37,669 nucleotides of DNA. Source: an uncultured Clostridium sp. (GTDB lineage: Bacteria > Bacillota > Clostridia > Clostridiales > Clostridiaceae). The notes beneath the pieces were generated by a model that was not told where the DNA came from, searched no databases, and was given only the letters and a program-made list of their open reading frames with translations. Location: positions 1 to 37,669 of the forward strand of contig CACZYK010000048.1 in the NCBI GenBank assembly GCA_902785295.1. Reading direction: 5' to 3'. Shown one piece after another: positions 2 to 17,487 of the stretch (positions are counted from its first letter, which is position 1; every line of letters begins with the position of its first letter). The position numbers and the translations under genes are program-made.

Positions 2-931
2 GTTCCTTTTAATGTTGATATGAGTCTTTCAGAAGAAGGAATAGAAGGTATGCTTAAAGAGTATAAAAATGATAAAAATTTAAATTTTGATACTTCAAAA
101 ATAGCAGAGTTTATTTATTTTTATACAAGTGGTTATCCATTTTTAGTAAGTAGAATATGTCAAATAATAGATGAAGATTTAGGAGCTTCTTGGAATGAAG
201 AAAATATGATTAGGGCAATAAAACTTTTATTAGATGAGAATAATACTCTATTTGATGATTTGGTAAAAAATATAGAAAATAATAATAAACTTCAAAATCT
301 TATTGAGAGTATAGTTATTGATGGAAAGATTATAAGCTTTAATTTAAGTAATCCTATAATAAATTTAGGTGTAATATTTGGAATTCTATCTAAGAAGGAT
401 AATAAGGTATCTATAAGCAATAGAATATATGAGCAATATATATATGATTATCTATCATCTAAAATAGAAGTATCAAATAACATTTTAGAAAAGTATAATT
501 TTAAAAGTGACTTTATTGAAGGAAATGGATTAAATGTAGAAAAGATATTACTAAGATTTCAACAATTTATGAAAGAAAACTATAGTAAAAAAGATGAAGT
601 ATTTTTAGAAAGGGAAGGAAGATTACTCTTTTTAGCATTTATAAAGCCAATAATAAATGGAGTAGGCTTTGATTTTAAAGAAGTACAAATATCAGAGGAA
701 AAAAGATTAGATGTAGTTATAATATATAATTCCAACAAATATATAATAGAGCTAAAAATATGGCGTGGTGAGAAATATCACCAAAGAGGTTTAAAGCAAC
801 TTTCAGATTATATTGATATTAATGAACAAAATAAAGGATACTTATTAATTTTTAACTTTAACAAAGATAAAGAGTACAAGAAAGAAGTAATCAATAATGA
901 TGGAAAAGAAATAATAGCAGTATTTGTTTAG
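2..931 (+). CDS. AAA-ATPase-like / PD-(D/E)XK nuclease-superfamily protein (5' end outside window)
   Basis: The reading frame is open from base 2, and the residues before the first ATG (VPFNVD, then MSLSEEGIEGML) continue a family-typical sequence. The gene therefore starts upstream of the window and the ATG at 20 is internal. The visible part matches the C-terminal half of the AAA-ATPase-like/PDDEXK_9 family: a helical region with a TSGYPFLVSR segment (about residues 36-45 after the ATG), then a PD-(D/E)XK fold at the C-terminus with RLDVVI (the Asp) and YIIELKIW (the E-x-K), so the nuclease motif looks intact. The P-loop would lie outside the window. These proteins are common in gut anaerobes and their biological role is unsettled. 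It is followed by a gap and a new promoter, so it is probably not in the next operon. The family call is from memory of the motif pattern. Confidence 0.75.
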   Translation, partial: VPFNVDMSLSEEGIEGMLKEYKNDKNLNFDTSKIAEFIYFYTSGYPFLVSRICQIIDEDLGASWNEENMIRAIKLLLDENNTLFDDLVKNIENNNKLQNLIESIVIDGKIISFNLSNPIINLGVIFGILSKKDNKVSISNRIYEQYIYDYLSSKIEVSNNILEKYNFKSDFIEGNGLNVEKILLRFQQFMKENYSKKDEVFLEREGRLLFLAFIKPIINGVGFDFKEVQISEEKRLDVVIIYNSNKYIIELKIWRGEKYHQRGLKQLSDYIDINEQNKGYLLIFNFNKDKEYKKEVINNDGKEIIAVFV

Positions 932-1044: not shown

Positions 1045-1055
1045 AATATTAATTC
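1024..1055. repeat. 32-bp perfect palindrome over the -10 region
   Basis: Bases 1024-1055 are their own reverse complement: the half gaattaatattattat is followed by its exact complement with no loop. It has no T-run after it and sits between the -35 box and the start codon of the first SipW-cluster gene. An operator or cruciform-prone site is more likely than a terminator. Long AT palindromes arise more easily in AT-rich DNA, but 16 bp per arm exceeds chance expectation. Confidence 0.75.
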
Positions 1056-1095
1056 AATTTTAGAAACAAATTATTAAAAGTAGGGGTGATACTTA

Positions 1096-2310
1096 ATGAA
1101 TAAAAAAAGTAATAAAAAAATTATGGCAGGGCTTATAGTTTTAATTATTTTTATTATTATAGGTATCACATATTCTGATTTTTTGGATAATTTTAAGGAA
1201 GGAATGAAGTTTTTAGTAATATCTTTTTTAATATCAGCAGGATTAGTACTATTTTTATTTGTATTGAAGTATATTGTAAAGGTTATGAATAAATTTCTGG
1301 GAACAGGAAGTACATTTAATAAAAGAGCAATTATAGTTTTTTCAATTCTTATTTTAATGAGTTTAACCTGTGGAGGTTTTTTGTATAATCTTAAGCTTGG
1401 AATGTTATTTTTAATAGCAGCTATTTTATTTTCAAGTTTAATTTTAATAAGTATTATTAGTATAAAAGCTAGAGTGAATATATTTAAGGTAAGAGCTAGA
1501 TTAGAGAACTTGGATAAAAAAGAGGCTATCAGGATTTTTGGAATGGTATTTGTTTGTATACTTGTAGGAATATCTTTAAGTGGAACTTGGGCTTATTTTA
1601 CTAATGGCAAGGAAATTTGTTTGGATATTGTTCCACTAAAGGTAAATTATTATGGTAGTTCAAGTGGAAAGCCATCTGGAGGAACTACTACTGATGATAC
1701 TAGTGAATATAATCATAATGTTGTAAATAGTCTTTATGAAGCACAGCTAGGAGATATAGTAATTCATTTTTTAAATAAGTATGATGGAGTGAATTCTCCA
1801 TTTCAAGCACCTTATATATACGTATGGTATGAAGATTCTTCTGGAAATAAAATAGAACCAGCAGGACCTTGGAGTGTAGACTATGATGAAAAAGATGAAA
1901 CTAAAACAGGAAATCAAGGAACAAAGATGGTAAGAGAGGATAATAGATATTGTTGGTATAGTTATATAATAAGAAGTCCTAAATCAAAGGATAATACAGT
2001 TTCTTGTATAATAAAATGTCCAACATATGCTTCACCTAAGTTTAATATAGAACAATTAGAGGATGAAAGTTATGTTAATGACTTTATTTATGGAAATAAA
2101 ACAAATATAGAAAGAGTAGATAAAACAGAGAATATTACTAATTTAAAATATTCTGAAGATGAAATTACACATTATTATATAATATGTAAAAATATAAAGA
2201 GTACACAAGGAATATATAATGATTATGGAAGTTTTAAATATGTTACAGCTATATATGGAATAGAAGCGAGCAATAGTAATTCTTCATATGATGCAATTTT
2301 TAAAAAGTAA
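1096..2310 (+). CDS. Polytopic membrane protein with an internal SipW-type site and an extracellular C-terminal domain
   Basis: 404 aa, family not recognised. The lysine-rich N-terminus (MNKKSNKK) is followed by five hydrophobic segments at about residues 8-27, 36-60, 78-94, 101-122 and 145-163, then a hydrophilic domain (170-404) that should lie outside the cell. The first four TMs form two hairpins with similar turns, DFLDNFKEGMKFL and GFLYNLKLGMLFL, and the same turn recurs in the membrane protein encoded at 5184-6590. The fifth TM ends in GTWAYFTNG, like the end of SipW-dependent signal peptides (TasA type, TWAAF). SipW, encoded at 6783, might therefore cut here and release the outer domain, which contains a Gly/Ser/Thr linker (187-203) and many aromatic residues but no domain I can name. 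SD aggggtg precedes the ATG. It is the first gene of the cluster; the SipW relation is inferred. Confidence 0.7.
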   Translation: MNKKSNKKIMAGLIVLIIFIIIGITYSDFLDNFKEGMKFLVISFLISAGLVLFLFVLKYIVKVMNKFLGTGSTFNKRAIIVFSILILMSLTCGGFLYNLKLGMLFLIAAILFSSLILISIISIKARVNIFKVRARLENLDKKEAIRIFGMVFVCILVGISLSGTWAYFTNGKEICLDIVPLKVNYYGSSSGKPSGGTTTDDTSEYNHNVVNSLYEAQLGDIVIHFLNKYDGVNSPFQAPYIYVWYEDSSGNKIEPAGPWSVDYDEKDETKTGNQGTKMVREDNRYCWYSYIIRSPKSKDNTVSCIIKCPTYASPKFNIEQLEDESYVNDFIYGNKTNIERVDKTENITNLKYSEDEITHYYIICKNIKSTQGIYNDYGSFKYVTAIYGIEASNSNSSYDAIFKK

Positions 2311-2418
2311 AATTAAGTATATATCTTAGCTAATTGCATAACTAAATAATTAATTCTGTGGATAAATACTTTATATGTAAGTAAAAAAGTCAATATATCT
2401 AATAAGGGGTGAGAAAAA

Positions 2419-5097
2419 TTGATAAAGAGAAAAAAAGTATTAACTCTATTAAGTTGTATATTAATATCTTCAGTAGCTTTTTCTTCTACACAAGCTTATT
2501 TTAATAGTAAATTTAATTTAAATGATATAATGTCTAAAGAAGTAACTAAAGAATTAAGTATAAAAAATGGAGAAATAAATTTAAGCTTTGGAGATAAGCC
2601 TTCTAGTTGGAATATTGATGGTAAAGATATAAATGCAGTAAATGATGTAGTTGAAGTTTCAGGAGAAAAAGATAATTCAATAACGACAAATTATAAATAT
2701 GTTTATTTAGATAATACAAAAACAAATTTAACTACAAAAATTAACTTAGCAGTTTTATATGGTTTAAATAGTAATATACCATCATATACAAATAAAGTAA
2801 CTGTAAATAATCCTACAGAACCTTTTGAAGTTATGGTAGGAGATATAGACAATTGCAATTTAACTCAATTAGGAAAGGGATATTATCAAGGCTTTGAGCA
2901 AACAGTAAGTCCTTTTAGTGGAAAAAAATATGACCATTCAGCTTCAGTAGATATATATCCTTATGATAATAAAGAACTTGCATATAAGGATTATCCAGAA
3001 AAGGATAAGTTTAAAGCAAGTACAGGTCTTGACAAAATAGATGCTTCAGGAACAGATAGAAAAATGGCATCAACAGGATTTTATAACACATTAATGGCTG
3101 TGTCAGGAGCTAAAGATTCAAAGGATGCTTTGAAAGCTTTAACAGATACAAAAAAAGCAAGTTATAATCCTTATAATAGAACAAAATATCGTTTATTAAA
3201 ATTAGAATCAGATTATAGTGGTGATGGTGTAGATTTATACTCAGGGCATCAATTATGGTGTGATTATTATACTGATAGATCCATGACAGGAACTTTTGGT
3301 AATGATTATACAACAGATGATGATTACAAAATAGGAGACAAAAAGTGGAAGTATATACAACCAGTTGAGGAGTTAACTTTTAAATATGATAAAATTGAAG
3401 ATAATGAGGATATAACATCTGCACAAATTTATTTATATATAGATGATATACAAAGTGGACAAGCTTTAGAAACTGCTAGTGATGAGTTTTCAGCAGTAAG
3501 TCAAAATAAATATAAAGTCACATTATCTGTTAAGGATGGCTCAACATGGAAAGATTTTGAAGTGCCTGAATGGGCATCAACAGTTAATGATGTAGTTTTA
3601 GATGGACCTTCAGGATATAGTATGACTTTTAATTTACCAAATCGTTTATTAAATATTATTAAAAAAGCAAGTGGCTTAGAAAATGGATTGAAGTTTAAAA
3701 TAGATGATAATAGTTTTGGAACAACTGGAGATAGTTATGCAATAGATTTTGCAAAATTAACAGTTAATAAAAATCCAGGTTCATTATCAGAAGAAAATGG
3801 AGCTAAGATTACAGGAAAAATTACAAGTGATGGTGCTTCTTTAACTAGTAGTGACTTAAAAGAAATAAGAATAACAGGAGCAGATGGAAGAAGTGCAACA
3901 ATAAATCCAGATGGAAGTTATACTCTTATTACATCACCAGGGGTTATATCAGTTACAGTTTCAAGTCAAAGTGGAAAATATTCTTCACAAACTAAGACAT
4001 TTAATAAAGTTGTTTCAGAAGGTGAAAGTATTTCTTGGGATTTTGATCTAGAGAAACAACCATTAATAATAGATGATTCAGAAAAATTTAATGTTAATTT
4101 GAAATTAGAACAATATATAAAAAGTACAGATACTTGGGAAGAGGTTCCTTTAGAAAATCCTAAAAATGAAGATGGTAAAGAAATAAGCAATGCTAAGAGC
4201 TTAGTTGTAAATGGAACAGAAGTAACATATGTAAGTAAATTTATTCAGTTAGGTGGAAATAACAAGTATAGAATTTCTTATAATGTAAAAGTAAATTCTA
4301 AAAATGGAATTTATCCTAATGCATCAGAAGATTTTTATACACAATTTTGGAGTAAACTTATAGCAAGGTCTACTCAAGAAAATAATCCAGGCTGGAGTGA
4401 AGATGGAGGTAGCATTGAAGATTATATTTCTAAATATTATAATCCCTCAATAAATCCAGAAGAACAAAAAGCAAAGATATATAAGGGAACTGTAACAAAT
4501 GCAAAAAATATTCCAGCTGATGGTGCAACAGTATTATTAAGAGAAAAAAATAGTGAAAAAATTAAAGGAATTTATGGAATTCAAAAAGAAAGTAGTGACT
4601 TTGAAATAAAAGCTTTATTAACAGAAGGAAAAGAGTATGAATTTGTATTGAAGTCATCTATTCATGAGGAAAGTATTACAAAAATAGATGATATTAATAA
4701 AACTACTGGATATTCTTTGACTTTAGGAAATGAAAAAACTTCTCAGGTTTATATAGAGAAACCATCAAATACAAGTGGCAATTTAATAAATTTTGATGAA
4801 AATTTTAAACTTTATAAAGAAACCAGTGTTCCAGATGTTAATAATGGTAATGGAAGTTCCCATTATAATAGTAATTATGATATGCCTTCTGAACATGAAG
4901 CTCTATATTTATCTAAAGGAGTTTTAGATATTAATAGTAATTGGTACAGATGGATTCTTGAAGATAGAAATGATACAGAAAATATGGCTTTACAAATTAG
5001 AAATGATATTAATCAAGATGATCCAATGACATATACTTTTGATACAAAACCTATGTATTGGTTCACTACAAATAAAATATTTATTTGTACACAATAG
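2419..5097 (+). CDS. Exported 892-aa protein with SipW-type signal peptide and CarboxypepD_reg-like domains
   Basis: Starts with TTG at 2419, eight bases after the SD aaggggt. The signal is MIKRKKVLTLLSC followed by a hydrophobic stretch and STQAYFNS (residues 23-30), which fits the SipW-dependent class. No C-terminal TM, LPXTG motif or other anchor is visible, so the product is probably released or polymerised. Residues about 457-540 and 685-780 look like carboxypeptidase-regulatory/transthyretin-like beta-sandwich modules, recognised by patterns such as KITGKITSDGASL and KIYKGTVTNAKNIPADGATV. The rest is beta-rich, Asn/Ser/Lys-rich and unassigned. It lies between two multi-TM proteins and upstream of sipW, so it is the leading candidate SipW substrate, perhaps a surface matrix or adhesion protein. 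It is much larger than TasA/CalY-type fibre subunits and shows no clear likeness to them beyond the signal peptide. Confidence 0.75.
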   Translation: MIKRKKVLTLLSCILISSVAFSSTQAYFNSKFNLNDIMSKEVTKELSIKNGEINLSFGDKPSSWNIDGKDINAVNDVVEVSGEKDNSITTNYKYVYLDNTKTNLTTKINLAVLYGLNSNIPSYTNKVTVNNPTEPFEVMVGDIDNCNLTQLGKGYYQGFEQTVSPFSGKKYDHSASVDIYPYDNKELAYKDYPEKDKFKASTGLDKIDASGTDRKMASTGFYNTLMAVSGAKDSKDALKALTDTKKASYNPYNRTKYRLLKLESDYSGDGVDLYSGHQLWCDYYTDRSMTGTFGNDYTTDDDYKIGDKKWKYIQPVEELTFKYDKIEDNEDITSAQIYLYIDDIQSGQALETASDEFSAVSQNKYKVTLSVKDGSTWKDFEVPEWASTVNDVVLDGPSGYSMTFNLPNRLLNIIKKASGLENGLKFKIDDNSFGTTGDSYAIDFAKLTVNKNPGSLSEENGAKITGKITSDGASLTSSDLKEIRITGADGRSATINPDGSYTLITSPGVISVTVSSQSGKYSSQTKTFNKVVSEGESISWDFDLEKQPLIIDDSEKFNVNLKLEQYIKSTDTWEEVPLENPKNEDGKEISNAKSLVVNGTEVTYVSKFIQLGGNNKYRISYNVKVNSKNGIYPNASEDFYTQFWSKLIARSTQENNPGWSEDGGSIEDYISKYYNPSINPEEQKAKIYKGTVTNAKNIPADGATVLLREKNSEKIKGIYGIQKESSDFEIKALLTEGKEYEFVLKSSIHEESITKIDDINKTTGYSLTLGNEKTSQVYIEKPSNTSGNLINFDENFKLYKETSVPDVNNGNGSSHYNSNYDMPSEHEALYLSKGVLDINSNWYRWILEDRNDTENMALQIRNDINQDDPMTYTFDTKPMYWFTTNKIFICTQ

Positions 5098-5108
5098 TAA
5101 GTGATAAA

Positions 5109-5142
5109 GGTACTAGTGAAAAATCTAGTGTCATTTTAATTA
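5109..5142 (+). terminator. Weak hairpin after the 892-aa gene
   Basis: ggtactag (5109-5116) pairs with ctagtgtc (5125-5132) using two G-U pairs around an 8-base loop, followed by attttaatt. The stem is short and the T-run is broken, so this is at best a partial terminator or a processing/attenuation hairpin between cluster genes. Confidence 0.3.
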
Positions 5143-5183
5143 GAAAAATTTAGAAGTATTTTACTTAACAAAAGGGGATTTTT

Positions 5184-6590
5184 ATGGTATTTCAAGTGAT
5201 TTTATTATTGATTATGTTTCTAATTATGAGTGGAGCAGCAGGGTTTGGCTTTTATGTGTTTAAGGATGGGGTTAATTATTTTTCTATAGCTTTTTTGGTT
5301 TTATCAGTAATTTGTATAGCGTTTTTATTAATTAAGCATTTTGTTATTGGAAAAAACATGAGGCATAGAAAGCTTAATATTGTAGATATGCTTAGGTTTA
5401 TGATTACTTTTATAATGATAAGTATTACTATGTCAAGCTTTTTATATGACACCAAGCTTGATATGTTAAATTTAGAAATAGCGTACATAATTTCAGCGGC
5501 AACTCTTGCTATAGTTATTATATTGAGAATTTATGATAGAGTAGCTATAAATAATATGAATAGAAGAAAAAAGATTACTCTTAATACTATTACAGTATTG
5601 CCAGGTCTTGTTATGATGAGTATTACTTATTTATCTTTTTTTGAAAGATTAAAAACTGGATTGATGTTTTTAGGAATATCTTTAATTTTTATGCTTATTT
5701 CTGTTGTAGTAATGATAAATTCTTATCCTAAAGAGGTGTTTAAAACATATAAAAATGATCCAATAGAAAAAACAGGGAAGGTATTTTCTATAATAAATTT
5801 TGTTGTAATAATGGGAATTCTTTTAGGATTAGGAGCTTTTGTTTATGATAAATTTATAAAAGATGAAAATTTTTTAGGAAATAAAGTAGCAATTTCAACT
5901 GAAACTTTAACTGAGGTTCAAAGTACTGAAGAAAGTAATTTAGAACCTGAATCTAGTACAATAGATGATGATAAAAATCAAGAGAATGAAAAAGAGAAGA
6001 GCGAAAAAGAAGATGAAGGCGTACAAGAGGATAAACAAATTTATGAAGGAATTCTTTTTAATTCATGGACTGATTCTAGTAAGATAGAGTGTATTGAAGG
6101 AAATAATTTTGCTTTTGTTCAAGAGGGAGTTATGATTAATCAGAATCATTCAAATGTTTTAAAGGTATATTTAAAAAATTCTTATAATAATAAACCAGAG
6201 GATTTTAGAACAAAAATAATGTATGATGGTGAAAATTTAAATTTATCTTCTTATGAAAATAAGTATTTAATTTTTGATATATTTAATGAAACAGAAGGGT
6301 CAAAGGGTTCACCTTTTGTTGCATTAAGAGATTCTGAAGGAAGACAAATAGCTGGTTGGTGTGAAAATTTCACAGCAGATTCTTCTAAATATGATAATGA
6401 AATAAGTAGTGGACAATGGAAAACTATTTGTGTGGATTTATTAAGTCTTCAAAAGAATACAAATAAAGAAAATGGAATATGGAAGCCTGAAAGTTTTGAT
6501 TTTAATTCTATAACTTGTATATGGATAGGTTATTGGGCAAAGGGTATTATGTATATTGACAATGTTACTTTTAGTGATGTGATGCCATAA
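5184..6590 (+). CDS. Seven-TM protein with TM-hairpin repeats and a sugar-binding-like outer domain
   Basis: 468 aa, ATG after SD aaagggga. Seven hydrophobic segments occupy about residues 1-220. Three hairpins carry related turns: FGFYVFKDGVNYFSI, SFLYDTKLDMLNLEI and SFFERLKTGLMFLGI. These resemble the hairpins of the protein encoded at 1096-2310, so the two share a duplicated membrane module. TM7 (about 200-220) is followed by a Glu/Asp/Lys-rich linker (245-282) and a C-terminal beta domain (283-468) containing SSGQWKTICVDL, FDFNSITCIWIGYW and IMYIDNVTFSD. That ending is typical of jelly-roll galactose-binding/CBM-like modules. The domain should face outward. There is no SipW-type cleavage motif after TM7, so it probably stays membrane-bound as an anchor that binds polysaccharide or the neighbouring exported protein. 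The function is inferred. Confidence 0.65.
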   Translation: MVFQVILLLIMFLIMSGAAGFGFYVFKDGVNYFSIAFLVLSVICIAFLLIKHFVIGKNMRHRKLNIVDMLRFMITFIMISITMSSFLYDTKLDMLNLEIAYIISAATLAIVIILRIYDRVAINNMNRRKKITLNTITVLPGLVMMSITYLSFFERLKTGLMFLGISLIFMLISVVVMINSYPKEVFKTYKNDPIEKTGKVFSIINFVVIMGILLGLGAFVYDKFIKDENFLGNKVAISTETLTEVQSTEESNLEPESSTIDDDKNQENEKEKSEKEDEGVQEDKQIYEGILFNSWTDSSKIECIEGNNFAFVQEGVMINQNHSNVLKVYLKNSYNNKPEDFRTKIMYDGENLNLSSYENKYLIFDIFNETEGSKGSPFVALRDSEGRQIAGWCENFTADSSKYDNEISSGQWKTICVDLLSLQKNTNKENGIWKPESFDFNSITCIWIGYWAKGIMYIDNVTFSDVMP

Positions 6591-6721
6591 TAGTTAAATT
6601 TTGAGTAAAAAAAGAATGATTATAAGTGTAATCTTATGTAGAATAAATATTGCTAAATAGCATAAAACAAAGAAAAGAAACAAATTTCTTAAAAATTTTT
6701 TTGAAAAAAAGTCGAAACGTA

Positions 6722-6750
6722 TTCAATCCCATGTAAATATGTGGTATAAT
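6722..6750 (+). promoter_or_regulatory. Candidate promoter of sipW (extended -10)
   Basis: TGG directly precedes TATAAT (6745-6750), giving an extended -10 element. The possible -35 is TTCAAT (6722-6727) at 17 bases, a poor match that an extended -10 can compensate for. The SD (aggggggaaag) and ATG at 6783 follow. sipW can thus be transcribed separately from the three genes before it. Confidence 0.55.
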
Positions 6751-6782
6751 GAGGACAGATTATAAAAGGGGGGAAAGAAAAC

Positions 6783-9020
6783 ATGGCAATAGCACAGGGT
6801 AAAAATTCTAAAAATGCAATGGCTATAGTAAAAAACATTGGGTTTGTTTTAATTTGTATAGTTTTAGGCTATGTTTTGATAGGTAATCTTTCAGCGAATA
6901 ATTCAACTATTTATAGTATATCTCATTATATGAATGAAGTAGTATTAACTGGATCAATGGAGCCAGAGATTAAGCCTGGAGATTATATTACAGTAATCAA
7001 AAAGAACAAAGATAGTTATAAGGTTGGAGATGTTGTTACTTATGTTCGTACAACAGATTCAGGAGACAAGGAAAGAGTTACTCACCAAATTATAAGTATT
7101 GATGGAGACCAAGTTATTACACAAGGTATTTCTGCAAGTAACACTAATGCTGATGATCCTATAACAAAGGATGATATTTTGGGTAAGCATATTCTTACAA
7201 TACCTAAGTTAGGTTATGTAATGAAGTTCTTGTCATCAACAACAGGTATTATATTAATAGTTGGTCTTATATTAGCAGTTATATTCTGGGAGATAACTGA
7301 ACCTAAGAGGGATGAAAATGAAGAGAAAGAGGAGGAAGTACAGCAAGCAAAGCCAGCTGTAGAAGAAGCTCCTAAAAAGAAAAAGCTTCCTTTTAATTTA
7401 CCTAAGAAGGTACAAAAAGAGCCTGTAGAAGAAGAAATAGAAACAATTCCTCAAAGTGTTGTAAGGAATGAAGCAGAAATTCCTAAAGAAAAAGCTGTTA
7501 TTCATGAAGAGAAAAAGCCTGTAAAGGCAGAGCCTATAGTAGATGATAATGATGACAGAGTAGACTTAATAGCAGAACTTACTAAGCTTAGAGAAGAAAA
7601 GAAGAGAATTTTAGATGCTCAAAAGCTTTTAGATGAAGCAAGAAAGAAAGAAATTGAGGATATGAATAAGAAGCTTGAAGATGCTTTAGAAGAAAATAAA
7701 AATATTACAAAAGCATCAAAAGTAACTGAAAATGCAGTAAATCTTCAAAACAATATGCAAGCAGGACAAGGAATGCAAAATGGATTTGTTCCAAATGGAT
7801 ATATGCAGCAGAATGGATATGTACAACAACCAAATATTTATGCTGGACAAGATGTTAATTCTCAACAAAATGGGTATATACAGAATGTTGGACAAGATAT
7901 TAATTCTCAACAAAATGCATATGTACAACAGCCAAATGGATATATGTATCAAAACAATAATCCATATGGACAACAAAATCCTTTTATGCAACAGCAACAA
8001 GAGCCAAATCAATTAAATCAACAAGCTCAAATTGAACAGCAAGGAACTTCTAATCAAGGTTTAAATCCTTTTGAGGTACCAAAGAAGATAGAAGTGGAAG
8101 AAAAGAAACATCCAAAGCCTAAAAATGATAGAACTTTAAAGCTTATAAGAACATTAGCTGGAATAAATATCACCTCAGAGGATATTGTAAAGGCTACTGG
8201 AATTGCATTAGAAAAAGTAAATAGACTTAAGGATGCAGATAGAGTTGTTACTATAGCAAAGAATTTATTAGATATGAATATGGCAATGGATGAGGTTGTA
8301 CTTGCAACTGGATTAAGTGAAGAAAGATTAAAGGAAATAATCTCTGAAGAAAAGCCAGTTCAATTTGATGAAAATTGGGAAGATGAGAGAATATTAAATA
8401 TAGCTAGAAAACTTATAGATGCCAATATGTCATTAGAAAAAATAGCTCAAGCTACTGGATTAAAGGTAACAAGAGTTGAAAGGATAAAAGAACAATATAG
8501 AGTTATTTCAATAGCTAAAAATCTTTATTCTATGGGAATGTCTTATGAAGACATAGCTCATGCAACTGCATTAACAGTTGGAGAAGTTAAAGCTTATGTT
8601 TTAGAAGAACCAGTAAATTATGAAGACTATGAAGAAAATACAGTAGCAGATGTAGTTAGAAACTTATTAACTATGCAAATGCCTATGGCAAATATAATAA
8701 AAGCAACTGGTCTTACATTAGAAGAGATTAGAACAGTTAAAGAAGATATAGAAATGGAAGCTATAGCAAAGAATTTAATAGAGATGAAGATATCTTCTAA
8801 GTATATTGCAGAAGCAACTGGTTTAGCTATAAGTAGAATCATGAAGCTTAAGGGTAATGATGATATAGTTGAAATAGCAAAGAATTTATTGCAAATGGGC
8901 TTGGCACAAGAAGAAGTTTCAGAAATTGTAAATCTACCAATAGATGTTGTATCTGTTATAGAAGTAGAAACATTGAAAAAGACAGATGTTATATCTATAG
9001 ATTTTGGAACTGTTAAATAG
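6783..9020 (+). CDS. sipW: SipW-type signal peptidase I with a giant cytoplasmic repeat tail
   Basis: 745 aa; bacterial SipW proteins are usually around 190 aa. Residues 1-175 form a complete S26B (ER/archaeal-type) signal peptidase: TM 17-36, catalytic Ser58 in LTGSMEPEIKPGDY, His101 in ERVTHQI in place of the Lys of ordinary LepB, acidic NADDPITKDDILGK at 122-135, and a second TM at 153-170. After ITEPKRDENEEKEEE the chain enters the cytoplasm: a charged Pro-rich linker (175-255), a probable coiled coil (260-310), a Gln/Asn/Tyr-rich region with tandem repeats (322-426), and seven ~37-residue helical repeats (450-733) with consensus IAKNLLxMxMxxExIAxATGLxxxxVxxIK, which resemble HTH modules. 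Likely role: cutting SipW-type signals of the exported proteins encoded upstream and, through its tail, docking or clustering with partners such as the repeat protein at 9954-10736. The catalytic part is confident; the tail's job is unknown. Confidence 0.88.
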   Translation: MAIAQGKNSKNAMAIVKNIGFVLICIVLGYVLIGNLSANNSTIYSISHYMNEVVLTGSMEPEIKPGDYITVIKKNKDSYKVGDVVTYVRTTDSGDKERVTHQIISIDGDQVITQGISASNTNADDPITKDDILGKHILTIPKLGYVMKFLSSTTGIILIVGLILAVIFWEITEPKRDENEEKEEEVQQAKPAVEEAPKKKKLPFNLPKKVQKEPVEEEIETIPQSVVRNEAEIPKEKAVIHEEKKPVKAEPIVDDNDDRVDLIAELTKLREEKKRILDAQKLLDEARKKEIEDMNKKLEDALEENKNITKASKVTENAVNLQNNMQAGQGMQNGFVPNGYMQQNGYVQQPNIYAGQDVNSQQNGYIQNVGQDINSQQNAYVQQPNGYMYQNNNPYGQQNPFMQQQQEPNQLNQQAQIEQQGTSNQGLNPFEVPKKIEVEEKKHPKPKNDRTLKLIRTLAGINITSEDIVKATGIALEKVNRLKDADRVVTIAKNLLDMNMAMDEVVLATGLSEERLKEIISEEKPVQFDENWEDERILNIARKLIDANMSLEKIAQATGLKVTRVERIKEQYRVISIAKNLYSMGMSYEDIAHATALTVGEVKAYVLEEPVNYEDYEENTVADVVRNLLTMQMPMANIIKATGLTLEEIRTVKEDIEMEAIAKNLIEMKISSKYIAEATGLAISRIMKLKGNDDIVEIAKNLLQMGLAQEEVSEIVNLPIDVVSVIEVETLKKTDVISIDFGTVK
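7845..7917 (+). repeat. 45-bp-period direct repeat in the Q/N-rich part of sipW
   Basis: A 28-base unit beginning ggacaagatgttaattctca at 7845 recurs at 7890 with one change, giving a 45-bp (15-codon) period that encodes GQDVNSQQNGY and GQDINSQQNAY. Flanking copies of tatgtacaaca(a/g)ccaaat occur near 7818 and 7920. Because the period is a multiple of three, copy number can change without a frameshift, so length variation between strains is expected. Confidence 0.8.
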
Positions 9021-9024
9021 TTAT

Positions 9025-9060
9025 AAAAAATGTGCAGACATAATGTTTGCACATTTTTTT
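9025..9060 (+). terminator. Rho-independent terminator after sipW
   Basis: aaaaatgtgcagaca pairs with tgtttgcacattttt through about 15 pairs (one G-U) around a three-base loop and ends in a T-run at 9054-9060. It closes the sipW transcription unit. Confidence 0.85.
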
Positions 9061-9136
9061 AGATTATAAAGAAGTTTTATTAATTAATAAATTGTTAGAA
9101 TTAATAATAAGGTTTATAAAAAAGTAAGTCATATGT

Positions 9137-9142
9137 TATAAT
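9137..9142 (+). promoter_or_regulatory. Candidate -10 box of the gene at 9175
   Basis: TATAAT at 9137-9142 lies between the sipW terminator and the next gene. The base run 17 upstream (ttataa, 9114-9119) is a weak -35. A promoter is expected here because a strong terminator separates this gene from sipW. Confidence 0.4.
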
Positions 9143-9174
9143 AAAGAATATTAATGGGTGATGGAGGAAGTTTT

Positions 9175-9897
9175 ATGAAGAAAGTAAGATATATAGGAAT
9201 GGTTTTTTTTCTATGTTTTGCATTAATAAGTTCTCTTATATGTATTCCTTATATAAATATTATGGCTGATGAAGACCAAGACCTTGGAGGAGAAGAGTTT
9301 TGGTGTCCTGTAAATGGAAAGGATTATGAGTTTACAGTAAATAATACATGGAATGAGGAAGGATATATAGATTATATTGAGTTTGATGATAGCTACATAA
9401 AAAATACAAGCTTAGGAGAAAATTATACCTTAGAAGAAGCCATAGAGAAGGGTATTGTTAGCAATTACAATGTAAAAATAATTATGGATGATAAAAAATA
9501 TGGAAAGGCAGATATTTTTTCTGGAAAGCTAAGTGAGGTAAAGGGGTTAAAGCTTAGAGTTACTAATGTTTATTTAAGATTAAATACTTATGTAAGCTTT
9601 AAAATGAGTATTTCAATAGAAGGAGGAGAAACTCCTAATGATAATGGCATAGTTGAAAGATATACATATATATTTAATCCAAGAGTATATAAGTCATCTT
9701 TAAGCAAAGAAGAATATGAAAAAGAAAAAGAAAATACAAATACAAATATAACAAATAAAGAGTCATCACAAAATAAGGAAATAATAAAAACAGAAGATCC
9801 AATATATATACAGGCAGTAGTTTTAGCAGTAGTAATGGTTATATCTATGGAAGCAATGGTTATATTAGTTAAAAAATATTATATAAAGAGAGGGTAA
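9175..9897 (+). CDS. Secreted protein with signal peptide and C-terminal membrane anchor
   Basis: The ATG at 9175 is preferred over the in-frame ATG at 9154 because the SD ggagg (9163-9167) sits at correct distance from it. 240 aa: N-terminal MKKVRYIGMVFFLCF is a classical signal peptide with probable cleavage near NIMA-DED. A beta-rich ectodomain of about 150 residues (GEEFWCPVNGKDYEF, with a pattern of short strands) is followed by a Lys/Glu/Asn/Thr-rich linker and a C-terminal TM (AVVLAVVMVISMEAMVILV) with a KKYYIKRG tail inside. Topology is type I: outer domain anchored at the membrane. The family was not recognised. It has no SipW-type signal, so ordinary LepB should process it. It sits between sipW and the small repeat protein with a 56-base gap to the latter, so it likely belongs to the same functional cluster. 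Confidence 0.7.
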   Translation: MKKVRYIGMVFFLCFALISSLICIPYINIMADEDQDLGGEEFWCPVNGKDYEFTVNNTWNEEGYIDYIEFDDSYIKNTSLGENYTLEEAIEKGIVSNYNVKIIMDDKKYGKADIFSGKLSEVKGLKLRVTNVYLRLNTYVSFKMSISIEGGETPNDNGIVERYTYIFNPRVYKSSLSKEEYEKEKENTNTNITNKESSQNKEIIKTEDPIYIQAVVLAVVMVISMEAMVILVKKYYIKRG

Positions 9898-9953
9898 AAT
9901 AGCCATATAACCAAAGAAAAATTTCTATTGTAGTTTAGGGGGGAATATATATT

Positions 9954-10736
9954 GTGAAGAAGAGACAACTTAATAAAAAAGTATTAAAGTTAAAAGACAA
10001 AATTTTAAATCCTTTTATGAAAAATAAAAAAAGTAGCCAAAAAACAATAGTAATTAATAAGGCTTTAGAGAAGAATGATATTAAGCAAGAAGAAGTAGTG
10101 AAAGAGCAAGAAAATATTTCAAATGAAGAATTAATTGTTGATGAAGAAACAAAAGAAGAAGTTAAAAAAAATAAATTTCAAGTCATAAAAAATGAAAAAA
10201 TTTCACAAAACAAAGAAATTAAATTTGAGCCTATACCTGAGCAACACAAGATTACTCCAAAATATAAAAAAGTAGTAAGTGAATTAATAAGCACCAATAT
10301 GGAAATAGAAGATATATCAAAAGCAGTGGATATGCCCATTAATGCTTTAATACGTATTAGAGAAAATGAAATTTTTTCATCTATAGTAAAGAAAATGTGG
10401 GAGCTTGATTTTCCTATTGAAAGCATTGTTCAGGTTACAGGATTAAAACTTAAAAAAGTTGCAGACATTATAATAAATTCTGAAAAACTTGATGAGCTAG
10501 AGATTGAGCAAGGAAAAATTGGAGAGATAATAAGAAATCTTTTAAAAATGAATGTTTCTATAGAACTAATATCAGAAGCTTCTGGTCTTTCTATAGAAGA
10601 AATAGGAAGATTTATAGATAACAGTGGAGTTAACATAATAGTAAGGAATTTATTACATATGAATATACCAATAGAGATAATTATAAAAGGAACAGGTTTA
10701 AGCCTTGAAAGCATAGATGCATTAAGAGCATATTAA
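9954..10736 (+). CDS. Cytoplasmic protein with four helical repeats shared with the SipW tail
   Basis: 260 aa; GTG start at 9954 after a strong SD (aggggggaata). The first 100 residues are Lys/Glu-rich and low complexity, with no TM or signal, so it is cytoplasmic. Residues about 101-260 contain four repeats of about 35-40 residues, for example VVSELISTNMEIEDISKAV, IIRNLLKMNVSIELISEASG and IVRNLLHMNIPIEIIIKGTG, each followed by L(S/K)(I/L)(E/K)xIxxxI. They match the seven repeats at the end of SipW (IAKNLLDMNM, ATGLS, LEEI) in phase and length. A simple idea is that this is a soluble partner or competitor of the SipW tail; DNA binding through the HTH-like repeats is the alternative. It is the last gene of the cluster. 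Confidence 0.65.
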   Translation: MKKRQLNKKVLKLKDKILNPFMKNKKSSQKTIVINKALEKNDIKQEEVVKEQENISNEELIVDEETKEEVKKNKFQVIKNEKISQNKEIKFEPIPEQHKITPKYKKVVSELISTNMEIEDISKAVDMPINALIRIRENEIFSSIVKKMWELDFPIESIVQVTGLKLKKVADIIINSEKLDELEIEQGKIGEIIRNLLKMNVSIELISEASGLSIEEIGRFIDNSGVNIIVRNLLHMNIPIEIIIKGTGLSLESIDALRAY

Positions 10737-10810
10737 AATTTAGAAATTTTCACAAAAAACTAAAGTATTCTTTGTAATCTTTATCAATGGCTGTAAACCA
10801 TACCAGAGGT

Positions 10811-10880: not shown

Positions 10881-11990
10881 ATGGCAAGTCTTTCATTGAG
10901 AGGAATTTACAAAATATATCCAGGGGATGTATGTGCAGTTAAGGATTTTAATCTAGAAATAGCAGATAAGGAATTTATCGTATTCGTAGGACCATCAGGA
11001 TGTGGTAAGTCAACTACATTAAGAATGATAGCAGGATTAGAAACAATTTCAAAAGGTGAATTATATATAGGGGACAAACTAGTAAATGATGTAGAACCAA
11101 AGAACAGAGATATAGCAATGGTTTTCCAAAGCTATGCGTTATACCCACATATGTCAGTTTTTGATAACATGGCATTTGCATTAAAGTTAAGAAAAGTTCC
11201 AAAAGCAGAAATAGAAAAGAAGGTTACAGAAGCTGCTAGAGCACTTGAAATAGAACATTTATTAGAAAGAAAGCCAAAAGCTTTATCAGGAGGACAAAGA
11301 CAAAGAGTTGCGTTAGGAAGAGCTATAGTAAGAGATGCTAAGGTATTCTTAATGGACGAACCTTTATCAAACTTAGATGCTAAGTTAAGAGTTCAAATGA
11401 GAACTGAAATTTCTAAGTTACATCACAAATTACAAACTACTTTCATATATGTAACACATGACCAAACAGAAGCTATGACAATGGGTACAAGAATAGTTGT
11501 TATGAAGGCTGGTATTGTACAACAAGTTGATACTCCACAAAACATCTACAATTACCCAACTAATAAGTTCGTTGCAAGCTTTATAGGAAGCCCTCAAATG
11601 AACTTTATAGATGGTAAGTTAGCTTTTGAAGGTGGTAAAGTTTATGCTACTTTTGATGGAGAAAAGATTCTTTTACCAGAAGAAAAAGCAACTAAGTTAA
11701 ATGAAGCTTTATTAAGAGATAAGGTTGTAACATTTGGTATTAGACCAGAAAACTTAAGTGATGACGAAGAATTAATAGACGAAAAGCCAGATGAAGTAAT
11801 TGAAGTAAGAGTAGAAGTTGTTGAATTAATGGGTGCTGAAAGTTATATTTATACTAAAAATGCAGGAAGCAACATAACTTTAAGAGTTAATGGAACAACT
11901 GCATTAAAGGTTGGAGATAAAGCAAGAGTTCATGTTGACCCAACTAAGATACATGTATTTGATAAGGAAACAGAAGTAAGATTAGCATAA
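10881..11990 (+). CDS. ugpC: Carbohydrate ABC transporter ATPase (MsmX/UgpC/MalK type)
   Basis: 369 aa, full length for this family. It energises sugar importers from the cytoplasmic side. Visible motifs: Walker A GPSGCGKST (about residues 38-46), Q-loop AMVFQSYALYPHM, signature LSGGQRQR, Walker B VFLMDEPLSNLD, H-loop YVTHDQTEA, and a C-terminal OB/TOBE regulatory domain (from about 240) as in MalK/MsmX. SD aaggagg precedes the ATG. It stands upstream of malEFG with a PucR-type gene between, so it most likely serves that transporter, and it may be shared among several sugar importers as MsmX is. The name MalK would be equally fair. Confidence 0.92.
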   Translation: MASLSLRGIYKIYPGDVCAVKDFNLEIADKEFIVFVGPSGCGKSTTLRMIAGLETISKGELYIGDKLVNDVEPKNRDIAMVFQSYALYPHMSVFDNMAFALKLRKVPKAEIEKKVTEAARALEIEHLLERKPKALSGGQRQRVALGRAIVRDAKVFLMDEPLSNLDAKLRVQMRTEISKLHHKLQTTFIYVTHDQTEAMTMGTRIVVMKAGIVQQVDTPQNIYNYPTNKFVASFIGSPQMNFIDGKLAFEGGKVYATFDGEKILLPEEKATKLNEALLRDKVVTFGIRPENLSDDEELIDEKPDEVIEVRVEVVELMGAESYIYTKNAGSNITLRVNGTTALKVGDKARVHVDPTKIHVFDKETEVRLA

Positions 11991-12019
11991 TTTTAAAAAT
12001 TTATTTGAGAGGTGTGTAT

Positions 12020-12970
12020 ATGAATATGCTGGTTAAACTTATGAAGGAGATTGAGGAAATAGCTAAGATTCCTTTTAAGTTAAAGAAATTAGTAGGAGAC
12101 ATTTATACATCTCCAAGTTTTTCTATAGAAAATGGATATGTGCAGACTACACTAAAATTATCTAATGAGGAATTTATATTACAAATAGCTAAGGAAGATG
12201 AAAGGGCTTTACCTCTTTTATCAAGTGCTATAGTGACAAATATTAAAACTTTTAATAATAGAAAGCTTAATATTATTTTAGAACTTATAAATGAAAAAAG
12301 TATTGAAGAGGATGAATTAAGAAGAGTTTATCCATTTCTTATGAATGAGTTTCAAATGCTTTATATCTATACAGAAAAAAGCTTTGAAGAGGTTTTTTCA
12401 ATTGTTCAAAGTGGTTATAGCCAGGAAGAAACTATTGTTATGGAATATGAAGGAAATATCCTTGTATTAGGAGTATTAGATGATATTTATGAACATGCAG
12501 AAAGTCTTTTAGAAACAATAACATCTGATATAAGTGGAAGAATTATTATAAGTTATTGGAATATAGAAAAATATACTGATTTAGGAAATGTCTTAAAAAA
12601 TTCTATGAAGAAAATAGAACTGGTTAAAAAATATAATATTTCCTCAAATATATTAGGTGAAAATGACCTTATATTTGAGGAAATGGTTGATAATATAAAT
12701 GAAAAGAAAAAGAAGGAACTTATAAATAAATTCTATGATGGCTTTATTAAACTTGATAATGAAATGATAAGGACAATAGAAGAGTTCTTTAATTGCGGTT
12801 TGAACCTGAGTGAAGGTGCAAAAGAGTTATATATTCACAGAAATACTCTTATATATAGATTAGATAAAGTAGAAAAATATACAGGTTTTGATATTAGAGA
12901 TTTTAATCAGGCAGCCTTGTTCAAAGTTATATTTGTACTTTTTAAGGAAGAAAAACTAAAAAAAATTTAA
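12020..12970 (+). CDS. PucR/CdaR-type transcriptional regulator
   Basis: The ATG at 12020 with SD agaggtg is preferred over the TTG at 12005. 316 aa. The C-terminus has the HTH of the PucR/CdaR family: FFNCGLNLSEGAKELYIHRN followed by TLIYRLDKVEKYTGFDIRD, a motif that usually binds DNA. The N-terminal ~240 residues have no clear ligand domain; they are mixed alpha/beta as in CdaR-like sensor regions. The gene begins 30 bases after the ABC ATPase gene and probably shares its transcript. Its place between the ATPase and malE suggests control of sugar uptake, possibly activating the malE promoter directly downstream. Confidence 0.8.
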   Translation: MNMLVKLMKEIEEIAKIPFKLKKLVGDIYTSPSFSIENGYVQTTLKLSNEEFILQIAKEDERALPLLSSAIVTNIKTFNNRKLNIILELINEKSIEEDELRRVYPFLMNEFQMLYIYTEKSFEEVFSIVQSGYSQEETIVMEYEGNILVLGVLDDIYEHAESLLETITSDISGRIIISYWNIEKYTDLGNVLKNSMKKIELVKKYNISSNILGENDLIFEEMVDNINEKKKKELINKFYDGFIKLDNEMIRTIEEFFNCGLNLSEGAKELYIHRNTLIYRLDKVEKYTGFDIRDFNQAALFKVIFVLFKEEKLKKI

Positions 12971-12987
12971 AAAAATTTAAAAAGTAC

Positions 12988-13016
12988 TTGAAAATGTTTG
13001 CACGAGGTAGTAAAAT
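12988..13016 (+). promoter_or_regulatory. Promoter of malEFG
   Basis: TTGAAA (12988-12993), 17 bases, TAAAAT (13011-13016). The transcript should start near 13023, giving a leader of about 140 bases before malE. The LacI-type operator at 13029-13040 follows directly. Confidence 0.7.
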
Positions 13017-13028
13017 AAAAATGAAGTT

Positions 13029-13040
13029 GGAAACGGTGCC
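13029..13040. promoter_or_regulatory. LacI-family operator upstream of malE
   Basis: GGAAACGGTGCC has the dyad GGnAnC-GnTnCC with a central CG, typical of LacI-family operators. The same dyad occurs as GGGAACGGTACC at 16368, before the LacI-type gene itself. Its position just after the predicted start site fits repression by blocking RNA polymerase. Confidence 0.65.
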
Positions 13041-13162
13041 GAATATTTAATAAAGAAGGACAAGATTCCATAAAGAAATTATATTGTTAAACTTAATTAG
13101 AATTGAATCTTAAAATTAAGATTTAATATATATTTAAGGACAGATATGAGGAGGAATTTAAT

Positions 13163-14425
13163 ATGATGAGTAAACGTACAAAAGTTTTAGCAGCTGCAAT
13201 GGCTACAATGATGATGGCTTCAGTATTTGTAGGCTGTGGAGACAATAATGAAGGAGGTTCTTCAAATTCTGGTTCTTCAAGTTCAGGAACAACAGAAAAG
13301 ACAGAATTTGCTAAGGAAATAGTAGTATGGAACCACTTAACAGAAGCTGAACATGAAGCTTTAAAGCCAATAGTAGAACAATGGGGAAAAGATAATGGAG
13401 TAACTATTACTTTCCAAAATGACCAAAACGATATGCAAGGTTATATGGATGCAGCTAAGAGTACTTCAGGACCAGCTTTATACTTCGGTATTTCAGCAGA
13501 TAACTTAGGAACTGGTCAAAAAGCAGGATACTTAGAAGAAGTTCCAAGCGGAGTAATCGATGAATCTAAGCTTTCAGAATCTTGTTTATCAGCTGGTAAG
13601 TGGGATGGAAAATACTATGCAGTTCCAATAGCTCAAGAATGTGTAGCTTTATTCTACAATACAGATAAGTGTCCAGAAGTTCCAGCAACTATGGAAGATT
13701 TAGTTAAGAAGGCTAAGGATGAAAAGTTAGGATTTGAATATGATATAACTAACTTCTACATGTCTTACTGCATGTTATCAGCTCAAGGTGGATATGTATT
13801 TAAGAGCACTGCTGATGGTCTTGATGTATCTGATGTCGGATTAGGAAATGATGGTGCTATTAAGGGTCTTACATTCATGAAGAGCTTAGTTGATGATGGA
13901 TTAATGACAGCTGATATAAGTGGAGATAAGGCAAGAGATGACTTTAAGGCTGGTAATAGTGCATTCTATATTTCAGGACCATGGGATGTTTCTACAATGA
14001 AAGAAGCAGGTGTTAACTTTAAGGTTGCTCCTATTCCAACAATAAATGGAAAGAACCCAAGCCCATTCTTAGGTGTACAAGCAGCATTTGTTAACTCTCA
14101 AGCAGGAGATAAGGAAAAGGCTACTGCATGGGAATTACTTAAGTACTTAACATCTAGCGAAGAAGTTGCTAACATATTATTAGAAAAAGGAAACAGAATT
14201 CCAGTTGCTAAGAGTGTTATAGAAAGCGATAGCTTCAAGGCTAATGAATTAATGGCAGGATTCGTTGAACAAGCAAAATTTGCTACTCCAACACCAAATG
14301 TAAAAGAAGTTTCATACATGTGGGATCCAGGTGCTAACGGAATTAAGTCTGTTCTTCAAGGAAAAGCAACTCCAGAAGAAGCAGGAGCTAAGATCGTTAA
14401 AGATATGAAGGATCAAATGGAATAA
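13163..14425 (+). CDS. malE: Maltodextrin-binding lipoprotein
   Basis: 420 aa, solute-binding protein of the MalE/family 1 type. It captures the sugar outside the membrane and delivers it to MalFG. The signal MMSKRTKVLAAAMATMMM ends in a lipobox ASVFVGC, with Cys25 as the lipid anchor, followed by a Gly/Ser linker. Family signs are KEIVVWNHLTEAEHEAL, FEYDITNFYMSYCMLSAQGG, GNSAFYISGPWDVS and FLGVQAAFVNS. SD gaggagg precedes the ATG; a second ATG directly after could also serve. A hairpin with a T-run follows the gene and should make malE RNA more abundant than malFG. Codon choice (many TTC, AAC, GAA) differs from the A/T-ending codons of the SipW cluster and suggests high expression. The sugar specificity is inferred from malQ and the operator context. 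Confidence 0.9.
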   Translation: MMSKRTKVLAAAMATMMMASVFVGCGDNNEGGSSNSGSSSSGTTEKTEFAKEIVVWNHLTEAEHEALKPIVEQWGKDNGVTITFQNDQNDMQGYMDAAKSTSGPALYFGISADNLGTGQKAGYLEEVPSGVIDESKLSESCLSAGKWDGKYYAVPIAQECVALFYNTDKCPEVPATMEDLVKKAKDEKLGFEYDITNFYMSYCMLSAQGGYVFKSTADGLDVSDVGLGNDGAIKGLTFMKSLVDDGLMTADISGDKARDDFKAGNSAFYISGPWDVSTMKEAGVNFKVAPIPTINGKNPSPFLGVQAAFVNSQAGDKEKATAWELLKYLTSSEEVANILLEKGNRIPVAKSVIESDSFKANELMAGFVEQAKFATPTPNVKEVSYMWDPGANGIKSVLQGKATPEEAGAKIVKDMKDQME

Positions 14426-14447
14426 GATTTTATAAAGTAAATTAAAA

Positions 14448-14475
14448 AAGGAGGAGAAAACTCCTCCTTATTTTT
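14448..14475 (+). terminator. Intra-operon attenuating terminator between malE and malF
   Basis: aaggagga (14448-14455) pairs perfectly with tcctcctt (14462-14469) around a 6-base loop, followed by attttt. Partial termination here is a common way to keep the binding protein in excess over the permeases. Confidence 0.75.
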
Positions 14476-14529
14476 CTGAAAAATGCTTATAATATGTTTA
14501 ATAATTTATTGAAAGGGGACTTTTTTACT

Positions 14530-15462
14530 ATGGCAGTAGAAAATAAGAAGAATACACAGATTGCAATACCTTATTTATTACCAGCAGCTATTGCAATATT
14601 TATATTTACAGTATTACCAATATTATATACTATATTCATCTCATTTACAGACTATTGTGGTGATAACAGATTAAATGGTACTTGGAAATTCATAGGAATA
14701 GATAATTTCTTACAAATATTTAATGGTAAATTTTCAGCATCATTATTCCCAGTATTTTTATGGACAGTAGTGTTTGCATTCTTATCAACTGCAGGTTCAT
14801 TCTTAGTTGGACTTATAGCAGCATTACTTTTAAACAATGAAAATGTTAAAGAAAGAGCAATTTATAAAGCTATTTTAATATTACCATGGGCACTTCCAGT
14901 AACAGTTGCTATACTTTCTTGGAAAGGTTTATTACATGGTTCAGAAGGTGCTATAAATAATATATTAGTTTCATTAGGAATAATGTCAGATAGTAATAGA
15001 ATTCTATGGTTAGAAGATCCTTTCTTTGCAAGAATGTGGTTAATATTAGTTAACATATGGCTTGGATTCCCTTACATGATGAATATTTGTCTTGGAGCTT
15101 TAGCATCAATTCCTAAAGATTATTATGAAGCAGCTGATGTTGATGGAGCTAACAAATTAATTCAATTTGTAAAGATTACATTACCATCATTAGCAAACAC
15201 AGCTTATCCATTATTAATATCATCATTCTCATTCAACTTTAATAACTTCGGTTCAGCATACTTGATTACAAATGGTAATCCAGCTGGAGAAAGCGTTTAC
15301 GCAGGTAAAACAGATATCTTGGCTTCAGTTATATATAAATTCGCTGTTAAAAAGGAATTATATGCAACAGGAGCAGCACTAGGAATCATAGTATTCGTAA
15401 TACTTGCAGCAATATCTTATGCACAAATGAAGTTATCTGGACAATTTGAGGAGGTAAAGTAA
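14530..15462 (+). CDS. malF: Maltodextrin ABC transporter permease MalF
   Basis: The ATG at 14530 is chosen over the in-frame ATG at 14494 because the SD aaagggga (14511-14518) falls between them at the right distance from the second. 310 aa, six TM segments expected: the first is around IPYLLPAAIAIFIFTVLPIL. The permease EAA loop is visible as YYEAADVDGANKLIQFVKI, followed by TLPSLANTAYPLL, the site that contacts the ATPase. It forms the membrane channel together with MalG, whose gene follows at once. It lacks the large periplasmic loop of E. coli MalF, as is usual in Gram-positive bacteria. Confidence 0.9.
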   Translation: MAVENKKNTQIAIPYLLPAAIAIFIFTVLPILYTIFISFTDYCGDNRLNGTWKFIGIDNFLQIFNGKFSASLFPVFLWTVVFAFLSTAGSFLVGLIAALLLNNENVKERAIYKAILILPWALPVTVAILSWKGLLHGSEGAINNILVSLGIMSDSNRILWLEDPFFARMWLILVNIWLGFPYMMNICLGALASIPKDYYEAADVDGANKLIQFVKITLPSLANTAYPLLISSFSFNFNNFGSAYLITNGNPAGESVYAGKTDILASVIYKFAVKKELYATGAALGIIVFVILAAISYAQMKLSGQFEEVK

Positions 15463-15463
15463 T

Positions 15464-16269: not shown

Positions 16270-16325
16270 TAGTTAATACTTAAAATCTCATTTGATAAAT
16301 ATTAGCACATTATAAGTAAAAATAT

Positions 16326-16352
16326 AAAAATTCCTATTTAATAGGAATTTTT
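16326..16352 (+). terminator. Terminator of malEFG
   Basis: aaaaattcctat pairs perfectly with ataggaattttt around a 3-base loop. The flanking A and T runs make it able to work in both directions. Confidence 0.8.
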
Positions 16353-16367
16353 ATATGATATGTTTAT

Positions 16368-16379
16368 GGGAACGGTACC
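16368..16379. promoter_or_regulatory. LacI-family operator upstream of the regulator gene
   Basis: GGGAACGGTACC shares the dyad GGnAnC-GnTnCC with the site at 13029-13040 before malE. It lies 42 bases before the start codon of the LacI-type gene, consistent with autoregulation. No good promoter was found directly around it. Confidence 0.65.
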
Positions 16380-16420
16380 AAGGGTGTTTTAAAAAGGGAT
16401 GCTTTTAGGAGGCTTAATAA

Positions 16421-17473: not shown

Positions 17474-17487
17474 TTAGGAGGAGAATA

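Follow-up and report, generated by a model that had tools for sequence, protein, structure and literature searches.

Type I signal peptidases are usually regarded as housekeeping cutters. The described systems closest to the locus considered here are the sipW-bsaABCRSD operon of Clostridium perfringens, for which the available parts of the source report that sipW and bsaA are required for pellicles and that bsaB and bsaC improve them (PMC7395162), and the TasA-TapA-SipW system of Bacillus, in which the TasA site, with Phe at P2' and Trp at P2, is described as a poor substrate for E. coli LepB (PMC10269814, available portion). A further precedent comes from the Rpn nucleases, whose C-terminal RpnS domain, in the portion of the source available, dimerizes through an interface on its long first helix, is sometimes encoded as a separate gene and, as this short form, binds to and blocks RpnL, the long one (PMC10327210).

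The locus lies in the window, that is, the whole stretch of 37,669 nucleotides that was analysed, which is the entire contig C48 of an uncultured Clostridium genome (151 contigs, 96% complete). The original prediction was of an undescribed surface-assembly system of six genes centred on a tailed SipW, and as a whole this interpretation is partly supported. Most of the cluster represents an enlarged form of the Clostridium sipW-bsaABC matrix-fibre locus, which is a known kind, and the new part is the SipW tail of seven units together with a repeat-only partner of 260 aa. In the open-licence literature, screened by titles and abstract openings, no paper on a repeat-tailed SipW or on SipW loci with starch-binding modules was found.

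The six-gene cluster and its relation to sipW-bsaABC loci

All six open reading frames are confirmed on the plus strand in the order predicted, with intergenic gaps of 56–192 bp and an RBS-like sequence ahead of each, which for gene 5 occurs solely at the ATG at 9175. Gene 1 (1096..2310, +; 404 aa) comprises a hairpin membrane region (aa 1–162), an internal SipW-type signal, GTWAYF, and an outer domain; hydropathy lists six N-terminal segments ahead of GTWAYF and, as some of them overlap, the transmembrane segments (TMs) probably number about five. Gene 2 (2419..5097, +; 892 aa, TTG start) encodes an exported protein of the family found in the BsaC position, with a CarboxypepD_reg-like domain and a single hydropathy signal that contains TQAYF. 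Gene 3 (5184..6590, +; 468 aa) has 7 or 8 TMs akin to the gene 1 hairpins followed by an outer domain, gene 4 (6783..9020, +; 745 aa) is SipW, and gene 5 (9154..9897, +; 247 aa, probable start 9175) is a type I membrane protein of an LPXTG-like family, with a signal and a C-terminal TM; a relationship of gene 5 to gene 2 was rejected on comparison. Gene 6 (9954..10736, +; 260 aa, GTG start) consists of a basic N-terminus, a linker and four repeat units (10272–10727) and shows no TM, its orthologue in the sister genome G203 having one marginal segment. The expectation of large substrates is borne out.

The membrane part of gene 3 is related to the gene 1 hairpins (BLAST to a gene 1 paralogue); identity to the G203 orthologues is 86–88% for gene 1 and 72% for gene 3. 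The repeated hairpin unit (~F..N.K.GM.FL) makes up proteins with about 5 to 12 hydrophobic segments (L071:1-1122 (-), L094:15-1736 (+), window 1096-2310 and 5184-6590), and no Pfam or NCBIfam family over cut-off was found for those of the window. The outer domain of gene 3 had been called CBM-like, a label dropped here since neither Pfam nor the PDB sequences gave a notable match to the domain. The interval between genes 2 and 3 contains a terminator-like hairpin, and gene 5 is preceded by a promoter-like site, neither kind being clearly more frequent than in shuffles, and no RNA family reached its gathering score in positions 1–12000.

The locus likely runs on upstream over two further contigs, C143 and C74, their contiguity with the window being inferred. 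The window begins with the C-terminal part of a gene (2..931, +) with a PDDEXK_3 domain, probably the remainder of the gene truncated at the end of C143, which we take to encode an ATPase; C143 terminates inside this ATPase-like gene, whose other part seems to start the window, and no overlap between the two contigs was found. In G203, a remnant of the ATPase-like gene stands directly ahead of gene 1, and a short end overlap of 26 bp links that remnant to the contig that carries the paralogues. The ends of C74 and C143 overlap exactly over 99 bp. C74 encodes a BsaA-like protein (401 aa), a paralogue of gene 5 (343 aa) and the first part of a multi-hairpin gene 1 paralogue, the rest of which lies on C143 with a gene 2 paralogue that is in two frames in this assembly and unbroken in G203 (1244 aa). 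The genome thus has a BsaA-like fibre subunit, on contigs that are very probably joined to the window upstream. A family 2 glycosyltransferase and a polysaccharide pyruvyl transferase, which lie between genes 2 and 3 in G203 (L076:5331-7441 (+)), are absent from that place in the window.

Relatives of these genes adjoin SipW elsewhere. Among 194 sampled genomes of the family, 46 have a SipW match at 1e-10 and 10, including the window's genome, a relative of gene 2 at 1e-5. Four genomes, G150 and G183 (L062, L064) and two from another genus (L063, L067), have a short SipW followed by a BsaA/TasA-like protein and then by homologues of gene 5 and gene 2. A closer SipW, of 314 aa in G177 and 189 aa in G175, comes after the gene 2 homologue, gene 5 homologues and a BsaA-like sequence lying further up, and G148 holds the same genes across two contigs, the gene 2 homologue being in two frames. 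The BsaA-like set and the gene 2 family have an N-terminal module in common (hhalign probability 97%). Gene 5 relatives end in LPQTG or KTGD-like motifs and 5 of 14 match EF0750_LPXTG at E up to 0.1, whereas gene 5 itself has a degenerate motif and no family match, EF0750_LPXTG included; sortase matches occur in all eight genomes checked, five of them in the window's genome.

As in the C. perfringens operon, SipW here stands beside a BsaA/TasA-like subunit and further putative secreted proteins, and the order in L062, L063, L064 and L067 is similar to that operon as far as the available source describes it (PMC7395162), the labels BsaB and BsaC being given by gene order. It differs from that description in the 745-aa SipW with its repeat tail, in the rearranged and duplicated genes, in the added hairpin-TM proteins and gene 6, and in that no two-component system was recognised next to the cluster (PMC7395162); the search for a bsaRS pair covered the cluster genes and the eight that follow, and the genes of C74 by eye. 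The system as a whole is not undescribed, the families of genes 2 and 5 adjoining short SipWs and BsaA/TasA-like subunits in other Clostridium genomes.

With the Bacillus TasA-TapA-SipW system the locus shares an ER-type signal peptidase, and the GTWA|YF of gene 1 is similar to the TasA site, where P2 is Trp and P2' is Phe, as given in the portion of the source available (PMC10269814); it differs by large modular substrates, LPXTG-like partners and a cytoplasmic repeat tail. Signals of the A|xF type are present in the cluster proteins and are putatively cut by the window's SipW. The SipW-signal profile matches gene 1 at 1543–1602 (E 0.03, under cut-off) and, at E up to 0.1, 6 of 9 members of the BsaA-like set. 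Over the whole genome at E up to 10, five matches were obtained, one over cut-off, all on C74, C143 and C48 and equal to four genes if C74 and C143 join; as the same loose search gives matches in 8 of 14 control genomes (2 over cut-off) and the profile misses gene 2 of the window, this genome-wide result is only supportive.

Starch adhesion by the locus is a reasonable inference. The gene 2 paralogue (L094:1758-5489 (+); L060:774-4467 (-)) carries CBM26 and MucBP domains: the G203 copy contains two starch-binding modules of the CBM26 type (1.2e-33) along with three MucBP domains and a single CarboxypepD_reg, and in the window's genome the larger piece of the paralogue has MucBP, PUD and a CBM26 barely over cut-off. 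The gene 2 homologue of G183 also has CBM26, which matches 3 of 11 members of the gene 2 family alignment; no carbohydrate-binding match was obtained for gene 2 of the window or for the outer domains of genes 1 and 3. A by-eye likeness of gene 1 to CBM26 was dropped, as the window's gene was absent from the matches of a CBM26 profile made from relatives, its G203 orthologue reached a domain E of only 0.63 and Pfam gave no match. Downstream (10881..18984, +) lie a MalK-type ABC gene, a PucR-type regulator, a solute-binding protein, two permeases, a LacI regulator and a GH77 4-alpha-glucanotransferase (MalQ), and the same ABC gene, judged from the start of its sequence, follows gene 6 in G186 and G203. 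The amylosome of Ruminococcus bromii likewise has CBM26-type starch-binding surface proteins, and the locus differs from it, as far as the available portions of the sources go, in SipW-dependent export (PMC5814915, PMC9112005).

The SipW tail and its repeat-only partner

The catalytic part of SipW (6783..7292, +; aa 1–170) has two TMs (aa 15–33 and 149–167 by hydropathy) and a Ser-His active site with a following Asp (Ser58, His101, Asp124/125), residues that we take to have these active-site roles. It is an ER-type signal peptidase I, but not a Bacillus-type SipW equivalog: it passes the NCBIfam archaeal/ER-type signal peptidase I model TIGR02228 (70.1 bits, cut-off 51.85) and fails the Bacillus SipW equivalog NF046067 (69.1 bits, cut-off 190). 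At E 0.01, no second SipW was found in the genome.

The tail comprises a charged linker (7293..7772, +; aa 171–330), a Q/N-rich linker (7773..8102, +; aa 331–440) and seven RpnS/HTH-like units of 30 aa (8142..8984, +) that start at aa 454, 491, 540, 577, 624, 661 and 698, with spacings of 37/49/37/47/37/37. The four units of gene 6, spaced by 37/48/37, form most of its 260 aa. The prediction that a cytoplasmic protein is built of the same repeats as the SipW tail was confirmed: BLAST of the whole SipW against the genome gives the 260-aa protein at E 8e-16, independently of any consensus, and against a consensus drawn by eye from the window's own units these score 47–86, compared with 40 or less in 200 shuffles of the region, so that the repeats common to both proteins exceed chance. 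An origin as trivial DNA tandem arrays was rejected, since only short, weak arrays were found. The repeats are acidic in both proteins (pI 5.0), the N-terminus of gene 6 is basic (net +12 in 40 aa) and, by Q+N per 80 residues, three tailed SipWs rank first to third among the 409 ORFs of the loci compared.

The units weakly resemble the RpnS (C-terminal) domain of Rpn nucleases, as judged by profile comparison. The Rpn nuclease model TIGR01784 gives 37.6 and 31.3 bits with the repeat proteins, below its cut-off of 52.1, and the best-matching stretch is the C-terminal end of the model; the repeat proteins are not members of that family. Several HTH models match the tail, HTH_26 over its Pfam cut-off. 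In the PDB, a profile of 18 units matches five units of 8vd6 ('CAP REPEAT') at E 1.3e-10 and gives a weak match to 7th0, an RpnA chain of 49 residues (17 bits, E 0.044). A profile of the whole tail matches 10 of 194 family genomes at 1e-4, at 2.9e-6 or weaker beyond this clade, and 2 of 391 genomes of the class at 1e-6, the one outside this genome being an Rpn protein (Transposase_31, 4.1e-31). Like Rpn nucleases with RpnS antitoxins, the window has a three-helix, HTH-like unit, C-terminal in Rpn, common to one long and one short protein; it differs in the lack of a nuclease domain, in 4–7 tandem units and in their joining to a membrane peptidase. Binding of gene 6 to the SipW tail would have a precedent in that of RpnS to RpnL, although the SipW units need not retain the long first helix of the RpnS interface.

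Distribution, selection and tails of other SipWs

A long SipW tail occurs in 3 of 68 genomes of the genus, all sister species, and gene 6 is present in all three, as the predicted co-occurrence would have it; two of these three assemblies break inside SipW, which limits the comparison. The six genes together were found solely in this sister-species group. As the tail is confined to three sister species, its co-occurrence with gene 6 counts as one evolutionary event. Among 113 stretches that matched the search pattern, two encoded relatives of the tailed SipW, both metagenome-assembled: JALFQD010000065.1 (Clostridium sp. SUG910; 88% over aa 129–745) and ONGV01000083.1 (uncultured Clostridiales RUG296, RUG presumably standing for rumen; 79% over aa 65–745). 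The tail was not found in viral contigs, nor SipW in plasmids.

The repeats are under purifying selection while most tethers drift. With the window compared to G203 and to G186, in that order, dN/dS is 0.05 and 0 for the SipW catalytic part (106 and 42 of 170 codons available), 0.12 and 0.22 for the SipW repeats, 0.28 and 0.29 for the charged linker, 0.41 and 0.27 for the Q/N linker, 0.16 and 0.23 for the gene 6 repeats, 0.33 and 0.43 for the N half of gene 6, and 0.16 and 0.27 for gene 5. Against G203 only, values are 0.32–0.37 for gene 1, 0.33 for gene 2, 0.29–0.34 for gene 3 (1.3 for its linker) and 0.05 for the MalK-type control, so that in this pair genes 1–3 are less constrained than the tail repeats.

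A SipW-core match occurs in 85 of 391 genomes of the class, the 755-aa frame of the window being the longest among the matches listed. Twelve SipW loci, a sample biased by being picked for long frames, were read, and nine of them have cytoplasmic coiled-coil-like tails by eye; fourteen further frames of 360–483 aa outside this set match mainly part of the SipW core. A small peptidase with no tail is thus not universal among SipW loci. In G253, a SipW with a 200-aa coiled-coil-like tail is followed by a 172-aa coiled-coil-like protein (L119:6361-8039 (+)) and, after this companion, by three exported proteins with AWF signals, the same plan as in the window built of other parts. G505 has a SipW fused to a C-terminal sortase domain (L115:1180-2475 (-) = L120:7680-8975 (-); Pfam Sortase 3.5e-8, Peptidase_S26 1.6e-5) that adjoins several exported proteins, and the SipW of G241 (L114:1738-3024 (-)) has about 230 extra N-terminal residues, in which a receiver-like domain was seen by eye only and no Pfam domain was found. 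A DUF4351 (labelled RpnS) perceived by eye in the 255-aa SipW of G148 was dropped, as Pfam did not find it. Beside SipW in G533 (L123:4242-7664 (-)) and G218 (L124:7048-10474 (+)) stand pairs of large neighbouring proteins (606/531 and 534/599 aa) whose ends look similar by eye.

Possible roles of the tail

The reading that we favour, at a probability of about 0.55, is that of an expanded SipW-dependent surface-fibre locus in which the tail clusters SipW, recruits gene 6 and concentrates processing. Sec would export the substrates and SipW would cut A|YF-type sites in the BsaA-like subunit, gene 2 and the starch-binding gene 2 paralogue, as well as inside gene 1 after its hairpins, freeing the outer domain; gene 5 and its paralogue, LPXTG-like type I proteins, would serve as wall or membrane anchors. 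The tail would act as an oligomerization module, with acidic three-helix RpnS-type units on a charged, Q/N-rich tether. Its units would bind one another and those of repeat-only gene 6, which would join or crosslink SipW and whose basic N-terminus may keep it near the membrane. Processing would in this way be brought together in patches at which the large surface proteins, some of them starch-binding, would be assembled; BsaA-like subunits would be released along with the large proteins, and both would be retained by the LPXTG-like partners.

The strongest alternative to clustering is regulation, which we consider unlikely: tail and gene 6 would let SipW report the state of the surface or of secretion, and the HTH-like arrays would bind DNA or a regulator, thereby fulfilling the role of a two-component system in the control of matrix genes. 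B. subtilis SipW reportedly has a role in matrix gene regulation besides cleavage (PMC9486643, citing Terra 2012; available portion), no two-component pair was recognised next to the cluster genes, the HTH_26 match over its cut-off would allow nucleic-acid binding, and the N-terminus of gene 6 is basic. However, the tail is membrane-tethered, its units match the protein-binding RpnS domain, and the acidity of the repeats in both proteins argues against DNA binding, though not against protein-mediated signalling.

Less probable again is a role of gene 6 in inhibiting or releasing SipW clusters, its amount timing the processing of surface proteins. Both proteins carry the same units, and RpnS and RpnL, of which the short form blocks the long one according to the available portion of the source, set a precedent (PMC10327210); the catalytic site of SipW, however, lies across the membrane, and separate promoter control is not seen beyond sites at chance level. 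A reading of the tail as an Rpn-type fragment, domesticated or inserted, with no organising role is very improbable, for despite its narrow distribution and the Rpn-like fragments noted near the G186 locus, seven regularly spaced units are kept in three species at dN/dS 0.12–0.22 while the linkers drift. The fragments in question were seen by eye upstream of the BsaA-like gene of G186 (L095:652-1731 (+)); one matches the repeat unit weakly (13.9 bits), and the two pieces scanned have no Pfam Rpn match.

A bolder form of the clustering reading is tentative and, on balance, doubtful. It holds that an interaction domain of the Rpn-nuclease antitoxin type was recruited in tandem copies, together with a partner acting in trans, so that a signal peptidase became a self-organising membrane hub by which starch-binding matrix fibres are built at a single site, and that hub modules of this kind were acquired repeatedly by SipWs across Clostridia (coiled-coil-like tails, one of them with a companion protein, and one sortase fusion). 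If the proposed organisation is correct, the cleavage of matrix proteins would be organised spatially from inside the cell, the Rpn/RpnS domain would gain a second job, and fibres of the TasA/BsaA type would be tied to starch adhesion, so that matrix and substrate capture would be one system.
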